From: Sulfurimonas sp.
GTDB lineage: Bacteria > Campylobacterota > Campylobacteria > Campylobacterales > Sulfurimonadaceae
Direction of reading: 5' to 3'
NCBI GenBank assembly: GCA_027019325.1
Contig: JALUWT010000081.1
Span: forward strand, 1 to 53,752
DNA length: 53,752 nucleotides
Shown: positions 32,178 to 34,750 of the stretch, one piece after another
Layout: the number at the start of each line of letters is the position of its first letter
Position numbering within the stretch: the stretch's first letter is position 1
Position numbers and translations under genes: made by a program
The notes under the pieces: generated by a model
The model's database searches: none
What the model was told of the DNA's origin: nothing
What the model saw: only the letters and a program-made list of their open reading frames with translations

Positions 32178-32924
32178 CTCTTCATTTAACTCATAGAGTT
32201 TGATGTACTTGTAAAAGTTTGTTACCATGTGTGAGTAGGCAATGACAAGTCCGACATAACCGTCACGAAAACCCTGCTTAAAAAAGTATGTTTTTATAAA
32301 TGAATAAGCTCCGTTAAAAAAGGCTTTGCTAGGAGATGAAGATTTTTTTCCGGCATTGTTTTGTGCAAAGAGAGTAGAGTAGGTGTTTGCCTTGTCTATA
32401 AAACCCTCAATGGAAGTGTATGGATAATGATGTATAGCTCCCGCTATTTTTCCAAGCTGTAAATCTTTTTGCATAATATGCTCATGTACATGTTTGTCTG
32501 TAAAAGCTGTGACCTCTTTGTTGTAGATACGGATAATTTCATCAGCTGCCCAGCAGTGTTTAATCTCTCTTCTTTTATAAAAATTTGTGCGTAAAATGGA
32601 GTAAACATAATCTTTTGAAAGTTTGGTTTGTGCGAGATTGTCTATAAAACTGTCAGTGACAACTTCATCTGCATCGAGTGAGAAGATCCAGTTATTTGTT
32701 GCGTGAGAAGCTGCAAGGTTTTTTGTAGGACCAAAGCCTAGAAATTCACCTTGAATAAGTTTCACATTTTTGTACGATGCCGCGATACTCTCTGTCTTGT
32801 CTGTTGAGTTGTTACTATAAACGATGACCTCTTCAAAAGCTTTGAGTGCATCAAGTACATCTTTGAGTGTTGCTTCGGCATTTTTGACAATCATAACGCA
32901 AGAAATATGGGAAATCTTAGTCAT
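32163..32924 (-). CDS. glycosyltransferase family 2, WaaE/KdtX-like
   Basis: A 253-residue cytoplasmic GT-A enzyme. The opening ISCVMIVKNAEATLKDVLDAL and the metal-binding region FSLDADEVV (DxD type) fit the WaaE/KdtX group, which adds glucose to heptose I of the LPS inner core in several species. It overlaps the end of the kinase gene by 8 bases, so the two are co-translated. Confidence 0.82.
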   Translation of the reverse strand: MTKISHISCVMIVKNAEATLKDVLDALKAFEEVIVYSNNSTDKTESIAASYKNVKLIQGEFLGFGPTKNLAASHATNNWIFSLDADEVVTDSFIDNLAQTKLSKDYVYSILRTNFYKRREIKHCWAADEIIRIYNKEVTAFTDKHVHEHIMQKDLQLGKIAGAIHHYPYTSIEGFIDKANTYSTLFAQNNAGKKSSSPSKAFFNGAYSFIKTYFFKQGFRDGYVGLVIAYSHMVTNFYKYIKLYELNEELKRK

Positions 32925-33657
32925 TTACAGGTTTTCCTTTAAGCCTTTTTTTGAAGTTTTTAATCTTTTTATTTTTATTGGAGTAGTAAAGCACTTTTTG
33001 TTTGAAATTTTGAGAACATGGATAATGTTTAGAGTACTCTTCTGCCATAATTTCTAAAATTTCATCATGTGCCCAGAGTTTTGCAAAGTTTTGTGCACGC
33101 ATATCTTCATTGAGTGAGATAAACTCCATACGATTTACATCTACTATTTTAAAAATATAATCATTTTCACTCTTTTTTATAAGAATGTTTCCAGGAGAGT
33201 AATCATCATGAAAAATACCCGCATTGTGTAATTTAAGTGTAAAGTGGGCGAAAGCTTTAAACAGGACTTCTCGATTAGGAAATGTTTTATCTAAAAGAGG
33301 TTCTCGTATTGTGAAGTCGTAGGTGAAGTTTTCACTAATAAAATAACTTTCATCAATAAGTCCGGCTTTGAAAAATTCGATGTATGCTATAGGTTTTGGG
33401 GTAAATTCACCTAGGCGCAAAGAGTACTTATAAGATTTTTTTGCTTTAGAATCACGAAAAAAGGTGTATGCAATTTTATTGATGAAATTTGGTACTTTAA
33501 AAGATTTTACAACAACGTAGATGTCGCTATGAGAAATGATTTTAAGCTCATTCCTCGCTTTATGAATGAAGTTGTCATTGTTTTTAAAATGCTGTTTGAT
33601 ATTGAGTAGAAAATCTTTGAAACTCGCTTCATAAAGTGGATTTAATTTGTATTTCAT
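32917..33657 (-). CDS. LPS core kinase-like protein (InaA/WaaP-type)
   Basis: A 246-residue protein kinase-fold enzyme. The catalytic loop HDDYSPGNILI (150-160, with Asp and Asn positions of the kinase HxD...N motif) and the metal-binding IVDVNRM (Asp173) are clear. The fold and the LPS context suggest phosphorylation of heptose or Kdo, as for WaaP, KdkA or InaA-type enzymes. The acceptor is not determined. It is transcribed leftward from the symmetric promoter region at 33675-33703. Confidence 0.8.
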   Translation of the reverse strand: MKYKLNPLYEASFKDFLLNIKQHFKNNDNFIHKARNELKIISHSDIYVVVKSFKVPNFINKIAYTFFRDSKAKKSYKYSLRLGEFTPKPIAYIEFFKAGLIDESYFISENFTYDFTIREPLLDKTFPNREVLFKAFAHFTLKLHNAGIFHDDYSPGNILIKKSENDYIFKIVDVNRMEFISLNEDMRAQNFAKLWAHDEILEIMAEEYSKHYPCSQNFKQKVLYYSNKNKKIKNFKKRLKGKPVND

Positions 33658-33674
33658 ATATCTCTCATAAAGAA

Positions 33675-33703
33675 TTTTGTATAATGTAGTTAATTATACA
33701 AAA
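33675..33703. promoter_or_regulatory. symmetric divergent promoter in an 11-base inverted repeat
   Basis: TTTTGTATAAT (33675-33685), seven bases, then the exact complement ATTATACAAAA (33693-33703). Each arm carries a perfect TATAAT: rightward at 33680-33685 for the GT9 gene, leftward at 33698-33693 for the kinase gene. The two start sites would fall within a few bases of each other, so polymerase could use only one at a time, or a dimeric regulator could cover both. Confidence 0.6.
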
Positions 33704-33715
33704 AAAGGTATTAGC

Positions 33716-34750
33716 TTGAAGTTAAACTTTAGACGAGGCAGTGCATGGGCATCACAAAAAGCAAGAGATTTTTTAGCATCTAGGCAGCCTGAAGATATTC
33801 AATCGGTGACTGTAATTCGGCATGCAGCTATTGGTGATTTTGTAGTGATGCGTCCTTTTTTATTAGAATTAAGAAAATTTTTCCCTAATGCAAAAATTAC
33901 ACTAAGCGTTATGCGTTGTTATATGTATGGTATGCCTGAAGATTTAGTAGATGTTATACATATCGTTGATAAAAAAGACCAAAAGACAAATAAAAAAACA
34001 AATTTTTTTCAAAGACGTAATCAGATTCGTGAGTTACCTCCCCAAGATATAATGTTTGATTTGACAGATAGTGCTTTAAGTTTGATGTTAATACTTTTTA
34101 GTAATACAAAAATAAAAGTAGGTTACCCTTATCGATGGATACGACGTCTTTTTTATGATATTGCTGTACCTCGTAGTGATTTTGTTCTCGAAACCATGAG
34201 TATGATGCATCAAATTAATATAATGGGTGCGAATACACAACATTATCCACTTGATTATGTGTTAACAAATAAAAAACGTAATAAGAAGGAACCTTTTGTT
34301 ATATACTTTGCTGGTGCTTCTGTGCCACAACGTTGTTGGGAAGAACAAAAGTTCGTGCAGCTTATTAGAAAAATGATTAAACAATATCCTCGTTATAAGC
34401 ATGTTATTTTAAAAGGTATTAAAGAAGTAGAACATTTTAATGCAATATACACACCATTTCAAGAAAATGAAAATGTTATTCATCAGGATGCTCTACCGAT
34501 AGAAGAAATTTATGATTATTTAGCAAGCAGTTCTTTGGTTATTGTTGGTGATACAGGAATTAGAAATATGGCAATTGCCGCAAATTCTCCAACGTTAGGG
34601 TTAATGTGGGTACAGAATATATCACCTATGCGATACCTTCCAAAAGTGAAAGAACATCAAGTGGTTTTTAATACCAATTTTATTCCACCATCAGTTGAAG
34701 AAGTGTACCACGCTGCAACAAGAATGTTAGAAGAGTTGTATGCAGAATAA
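33716..34750 (+). CDS. glycosyltransferase family 9 (heptosyltransferase-like)
   Basis: About 344 residues of GT9 type. SVTVIRHAAIGDFVVMRPFL holds the catalytic GD, and VIVGDTGIRNMAIAANSPTLGLMW is a divergent nucleotide-sugar site. I place the start at TTG 33716, with AAGG upstream. The TTG at 33677 would overlap the promoter -10 box. It overlaps the following GT4 gene by 11 bases. The region is AT-rich, as is common for variable core genes. Confidence 0.78.
   Translation: MKLNFRRGSAWASQKARDFLASRQPEDIQSVTVIRHAAIGDFVVMRPFLLELRKFFPNAKITLSVMRCYMYGMPEDLVDVIHIVDKKDQKTNKKTNFFQRRNQIRELPPQDIMFDLTDSALSLMLILFSNTKIKVGYPYRWIRRLFYDIAVPRSDFVLETMSMMHQINIMGANTQHYPLDYVLTNKKRNKKEPFVIYFAGASVPQRCWEEQKFVQLIRKMIKQYPRYKHVILKGIKEVEHFNAIYTPFQENENVIHQDALPIEEIYDYLASSSLVIVGDTGIRNMAIAANSPTLGLMWVQNISPMRYLPKVKEHQVVFNTNFIPPSVEEVYHAATRMLEELYAE

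Follow-up and report, generated by a model that had tools for sequence, protein, structure and literature searches.

The window analysed here, i.e., the whole stretch of 53,752 nucleotides of Sulfurimonas sp. DNA, contains two divergently oriented genes that are separated by an intergenic gap of 58 bp (33658-33715, taking the TTG at 33716 as the start of the rightward gene). On the minus strand, a gene for a kinase-like protein of the Kdo/WaaP family occupies positions 32917-33657 and starts with an ATG at 33657; the family assignment is weak (PF06293 at 21.6 bits, barely above the Pfam cutoff of 21.3). Its divergent neighbor on the plus strand is a GT9 glycosyltransferase gene (33716-34750) that matches PF01075 and scores far below the cutoffs of the heptosyltransferase equivalogs (at best 51.2 vs. 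185.3 bits). The open reading frame list has this gene begin at a TTG at 33677, its true start probably being the TTG at 33716, which is the start point of related genes. With such scores, the designations "inner-core phosphorylation" and "outer-core transferase", given to the two genes in a sequence-only reading of the window, are unproven.

The gap houses a perfect inverted repeat (33675-33703), whose left arm (33675-33685, TTTTGTATAAT) is 100% complementary to the right arm (33693-33703, ATTATACAAAA). The earlier description of two 11-base arms around a 7-base spacer, each arm carrying one TATAAT and the whole lying between divergent genes, is therefore correct. The left hexamer (33680-33685, plus strand) is directed toward the GT9 gene with a predicted start near 33692, and the right hexamer (33693-33698, minus strand) toward the kinase gene with a predicted start near 33686; the spacer between them (33686-33692) would form part of a common melted region. 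Shine-Dalgarno-like sequences precede both genes, GAGAG for the kinase (33662-33666, minus strand) and AAAAGG for GT9 (33703-33708, plus strand), and are conserved in relatives as TcTCA and AAAAgg, respectively. At the kinase start, a tiny frame, ATG-AGA-GAT-ATA-TGA (33655-33669, minus strand), overlaps the gene by ATGA; read by eye, a four-codon version is present in L004, L006, L008, L009, L011 and L016, and a shortened one in L033, L034 and L036. It may represent nothing but the ribosome site. Allowing up to three mismatches, the repeat motif occurs once in the window vs. 0.01 occurrences expected from shuffled sequences, and the exact motif is found once in the 2.04-Mb source genome (218 contigs), where one further site matches with three mismatches. 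A chance origin is excluded chiefly because the repeat is conserved in other genomes. A sigma-70 promoter scan of the window detected neither arm, because it demands a match to a -35 box.

Sigma-70 promoters of Campylobacter jejuni and Helicobacter pylori do without a -35 box and are marked by gnTAnaAT, located 4-8 nt ahead of the start, and by conserved T residues at -7, -17, -27 and -38 (PMC3847290). When the last T of each hexamer is taken as -7, both arms of the repeat contain a TAnaAT hexamer and both directions show the further T residues. For the GT9-directed promoter (plus strand) these lie at -17 (33675), -27 (33665) and -38 (33654) and are present in 16, 16 and 16 of 16 gaps that hold the hexamer pair; for the kinase-directed promoter (minus strand) they lie at -17 (33703), -27 (33713) and -38 (33724) and occur in 16, 15 and 16 of the 16 gaps. 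Of the 33 columns between -13 and -45, 10 are T-rich in each direction (T in 15 or all 16 gaps), the three named columns would all be hit by chance in about 3% of cases per direction, and some of the conserved T columns fall in start codons or ribosome sites and would be fixed anyway. The likeness to the C. jejuni and H. pylori promoters thus comprises a TATAAT without a -35 box and T at -17, -27 and -38; the difference is that TTG precedes TATAAT in both arms, which places the G one base before the hexamer here and two bases before it there (PMC3847290). A G at the latter place is preferred but not strictly required. Neither is TTTTG in front of TATAAT a general consensus: of 84 upstream sites, 2 carry it, and these may be no more than the two arms themselves. 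The main text of PMC3847290 contains neither "divergent" nor "bidirectional".

With regard to conservation, a query of 121 bases (33640-33760) was searched in 135 genomes of the genus and matched 26 of them. The gap proper is present in 16 genomes besides the own one (L056-L071), the other nine being short partial matches. The window and 15 of these 16 relatives (L056-L070) have both TATAAT hexamers in perfect form. In the sixteenth, L071, the right arm is absent and so is GT9; here (G019:C10:10554-10597) the break lies inside the left hexamer, and the kinase gene plus its leader are retained. Among the 15 relatives with the pair, 13 have the kinase and GT9 genes as neighbors; in L070, which has the kinase gene and a GT4 gene, GT9 has been lost and the hexamer pair still stands before GT4, and in L069 GT9 is present and the left gene could not be read. 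The kinase start lies at a constant distance from the left hexamer in all of these gaps, window included, except that of L069, and the distance from the right hexamer to the TTG of GT9 is constant except in L065 (insertion) and L070 (loss of GT9). Length variation is confined to the spacer, which in the 16 gaps, window included, measures 7 bases in seven cases, 6 in three, 4 in three, 9 in two and 8 in one, and is also variable in sequence. Several relatives possess the kinase gene and no dyad; the dyad is also missing from L038 and L039, whose kinase and GT9 genes diverge across about 120 bp.

No other DNA of the region is as well conserved as the gap. In a comparison of 14 given loci, of which L016 had no usable GT9 gene and gap and L069 no usable kinase gene, and which included L004 and L040 that both share recombined tracts with the window, 613 of 754 gap positions (81%; 13 relatives) were identical to the window. 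Beyond codon 12, this applied to 1506 of 3036 third codon positions in the kinase gene (50%; 13 relatives) and to 2079 of 4247 in GT9 (49%; 13 relatives). The stretches of first codons were intermediate, with 90 of 141 and 92 of 143 identical third positions. We attribute the conservation of the whole gap to nearly every base serving two predicted promoters and two ribosome-binding sites.

Facing hexamers are not restricted to this locus. The own genome contains 32 facing pairs of the type TATAAT-N2-12-ATTATA vs. 10 pairs of the reversed pattern. According to an ORF-based classification, 14 of the 32 lie in divergent gaps, eight in co-directional gaps, one in a convergent gap, seven inside genes and two at edges, as opposed to none of the 10 reversed controls in divergent gaps (p = 0.017); in a 350,752-base sample of the genome, divergent gaps make up 3.9% of the sequence. 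Back-to-back pairs are over-represented in the own genome as well (23 vs. 8), 6 of 22 examined being located in divergent gaps, a share that does not differ significantly from that of the facing pairs (p = 0.26). Gene pairs with facing hexamers comprise kdsB/TrmN-like (L104:1501-1518), lpxB/dihydroorotase-like (L085:1501-1518) and prfB/panC, and further facing hexamers occur at alaS, rpsB, rdgB-like and 5-formyltetrahydrofolate cyclo-ligase genes as well as before a gene for a SIS+CBS protein (L107:1501-1522), which we take to be KdsD-like. Envelope genes seem frequent among the gaps with facing pairs, an impression that was gained after the fact. An LPS regulon defined by a shared dyad was considered and rejected, as the 14 divergent facing pairs also include those at prfB/panC, rpsB, alaS, the folate cyclo-ligase and the rdgB-like gene.

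Two of these gaps are widespread, that of kdsB matching in 120 and that of lpxB in 90 of the 135 genomes, some of the matches being partial. The hexamers face each other in perfect form in 30 of 30 kdsB loci and 30 of 30 lpxB loci when the best 30 matches of each gap are considered, which are the most similar ones, include the own locus and are therefore biased toward conservation. In these 60 loci the spacer has a length of 6 in 57 cases and of 7 in three, and its sequence is variable. For counts across the genus, 53 genomes (52 at least 99% complete plus the own one) were surveyed at spacers 3, 6 and 12, with the caveat that genomes share orthologous gaps and the counts are thus non-independent. 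TATAAT-N6-ATTATA was found 368 times vs. 52 for the reversed control, a sevenfold over-representation, and exceeded the control in all 53 genomes; spacer 3 (98 vs. 67) and spacer 12 (127 vs. 86) were both enriched only 1.5-fold. Divergent gaps harbor 23 of 39 spacer-6 sites sampled from five genomes vs. 6 of 20 spacer-12 sites sampled from seven genomes (p = 0.054). Of the 78 spacer-6 arms, 56 have T at -17 and 28 have G at the second base before the hexamer; the corresponding numbers for the 40 spacer-12 arms are 14 and 2. Since spacer-6 arms carry these signature bases more often, the spacer-6 class looks like promoters. Separately, a recurring spacer-12 pair, TATAAT-TTAAAACCTCGC-ATTATA or a close variant of it, was noted in G024, G075, G087, G094, G098 and others. 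A look-alike of the repeat with a longer stem around TTTGTATAAT...ATTATACAAA occurs in another context in L080 (G035:C53:3677-3704), where it may form a hairpin instead of representing a promoter pair.

Taken together, the inverted repeat at 33675-33703 is very probably a compact two-way promoter. It would consist of two sigma-70 -10 elements of the Campylobacterota type that face each other at a distance of 7 bp without -35 boxes, and the inverted repeat would exist because one consensus is present twice, in opposed orientation. Polymerase bound at the left hexamer would transcribe GT9 rightward and polymerase bound at the right hexamer the kinase gene leftward, both promoters melting nearly the same AT-rich stretch (33681-33697). 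With starts 7 nt past each hexamer, transcripts are predicted to begin at 33692 (plus strand) and 33686 (minus strand), 6 bp apart, the general distance being 13 minus the spacer length. The proposal of two opposed -10 elements with nearly coincident starts thus gains support from conservation and from the sigma-70 signature bases. The site would accommodate one polymerase at a time, and because the bound enzyme would leave after initiation, both genes would be expected to be expressed in the same cell through alternate firing and in a roughly co-ordinated manner; promoter activity, start positions and alternate firing have all been predicted from DNA sequence.

The perfect symmetry of the repeat is also what an operator would offer to a dimeric regulator controlling both genes, and the nearly fixed hexamer spacing in the best-matching kdsB and lpxB loci as well as the position of several own-genome pairs at envelope genes (kdsB, lpxB, SIS+CBS protein, kinase/GT9) fit such a function. 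We nevertheless regard it as very unlikely: half-site spacing is not fixed at the kinase/GT9 locus and ranges from 4 to 9 bases, a difference of half a helical turn that a rigid operator would hardly tolerate, the right arm varies in its outer bases among relatives, other facing pairs are located at prfB/panC, rpsB, alaS and rdgB-like genes, and spacer-6 arms bear sigma-70 signature bases. A similarly low probability is assigned to only one hexamer being active, in which case the other would match weakly or by chance and its gene would be driven by a promoter further upstream. The AT-rich genome indeed has many TATAAT sequences (450 on either strand of the 350,752-base sample) and no -35 box is visible, but both hexamers are equally perfect in all 16 gaps holding the pair, and there is little room, as promoters further upstream would fall inside the opposite gene. 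That the repeat encodes an RNA hairpin, either an attenuator or a terminator, is extremely improbable despite the fact that a 43-base stretch folds at -8.5 (plus strand) and -7.1 kcal/mol (minus strand) with z values of -4.8 and -7.4: the predicted transcripts begin inside the repeat and contain one arm only, no T run follows the stem on either strand, and outer pairs are broken in 5 of 16 gaps (L060, L065, L066, L067 and L068), compensatory pairing not being kept. An Rfam search yielded no match at E values up to 1.

Homologous exchange passing through the gap and swapping kinase and GT9 alleles would offer a different reason for the conservation, as the gap would then be maintained mainly as a recombination joint. 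Apparent tract boundaries do lie in or beside the gap (window 33500-34416; L056/L040, L004). In L056/L040 the gap is 100% and the adjoining approximately 100 kinase bases are 94-96% identical to the window, as opposed to 51-82% in the remaining kinase and GT9 bins; in L004, GT9 identity amounts to 96-99% as far as position 34216 and to 86-89% over the last two bins, the adjoining kinase bins reach 65-73%, and the change falls at the repeat. Alleles have thus probably been exchanged across or beside the gap at least twice. As the main cause of conservation such exchange is unlikely, given that other relatives keep 69-91% identity in the gap without such tracts and that the constraint centers on the hexamers, ribosome sites and starts; recombination would complement the promoter reading, not supplant it. 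The sequence-only reading claims that the arrangement enforces either/or expression, in which case the overlap would let a cell express either the kinase side or that of GT9 and not both. Predicted polymerase footprints overlap almost wholly, simultaneous binding would be impossible, and opposing polymerases have been stated to be unable to bind together at E. coli bidirectional promoters (PMC12825309). On the other hand, basal activity of all five tested E. coli promoters was too low for competition, one side was repressed only when the other was strongly activated, and interference lowered cell-to-cell variation (PMC12825309). Furthermore, the gap shows no feedback or memory element, and the facing layout recurs at household gene pairs, e.g., kdsB/TrmN-like, lpxB/dihydroorotase-like and prfB/panC, where either/or logic makes little sense. 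Enforced alternation is therefore not supported, and we consider such a switch quite improbable. Two other kinds of switch were also discarded: inversion, as arms of 11 bases with 7 between them are too small and the relatives all show one orientation, and phase variation of the A tract between repeat and GT9 ribosome site, as the run shows point changes and not a length series.

The proposed two-way promoter is best compared with the bidirectional promoters of E. coli and Salmonella (Grainger, Wade), with which it would share a short symmetrical site from which polymerase can proceed either way to produce divergent mRNAs, chromosomal sites often being located between divergent genes (PMC12825309; PMC10268837). 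The latter applies to the kinase/GT9 gap and to the 14 divergent facing pairs of the own genome. The -10 element is shared in those promoters, whereas the present site has two complete hexamers facing each other across 7 bp (4-9 bp in relatives). In E. coli, 18 bp is the most frequent distance between starts, 10 and 23 bp being common as well (PMC12825309), and bidirectional promoters in Salmonella have been defined by starts 7-25 bp apart (PMC10268837). The distance predicted here is 6 bp, and 4-9 bp in relatives, which is at or just below the lower bound of the Warman/Grainger definition. With regard to the reciprocal overlap of key -10 and start positions on opposite strands that belongs to this definition, the hexamers of the repeat do not overlap, and a start 6-8 nt downstream of one would lie beside or in the other. 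The E. coli class with starts 10 bp apart corresponds by arithmetic to spacer 3, which is not especially enriched in Sulfurimonas. Divergent gene pairs such as acrA/acrR and soxS/soxR likewise share a promoter region, but with activators or repressors (PMC12825309), none of which was seen at kinase/GT9. Among leading titles and abstracts of the open-licence literature, bidirectional or facing promoters were not described in Sulfurimonas or other Campylobacterota.

The over-representation at spacer 6 points to a genus-wide, spacing-defined variant of the known bidirectional promoters. With a spacer of 6, each ATTATA has its first A 7 nt beyond the opposite hexamer, where the start is expected, and the pair in the window, with its spacer of 7, is near and not at this preferred value. 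We tentatively suggest, at somewhat less than even confidence, that Sulfurimonas possesses a promoter class in which perfect TATAAT hexamers face each other about 6 bp apart, each first A pairs with the opposite -7 T and one bubble serves both strands. The proposed layout, which differs from the start distances of 18, 10 and 23 bp common in E. coli, recurs at divergent pairs including those of the envelope-sugar genes kdsB, lpxB, SIS+CBS protein and kinase/GT9. This candidate class with its preferred spacing is the newest part of the present analysis. If true, it would explain how two promoters and two ribosome sites are packed into gaps of about 50 bp in compact genomes, it would be countable from sequence alone, and it would caution against taking every perfect inverted repeat between divergent genes for a regulator site. 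Should start mapping confirm it, a large bacterial group would use another common two-way promoter geometry.
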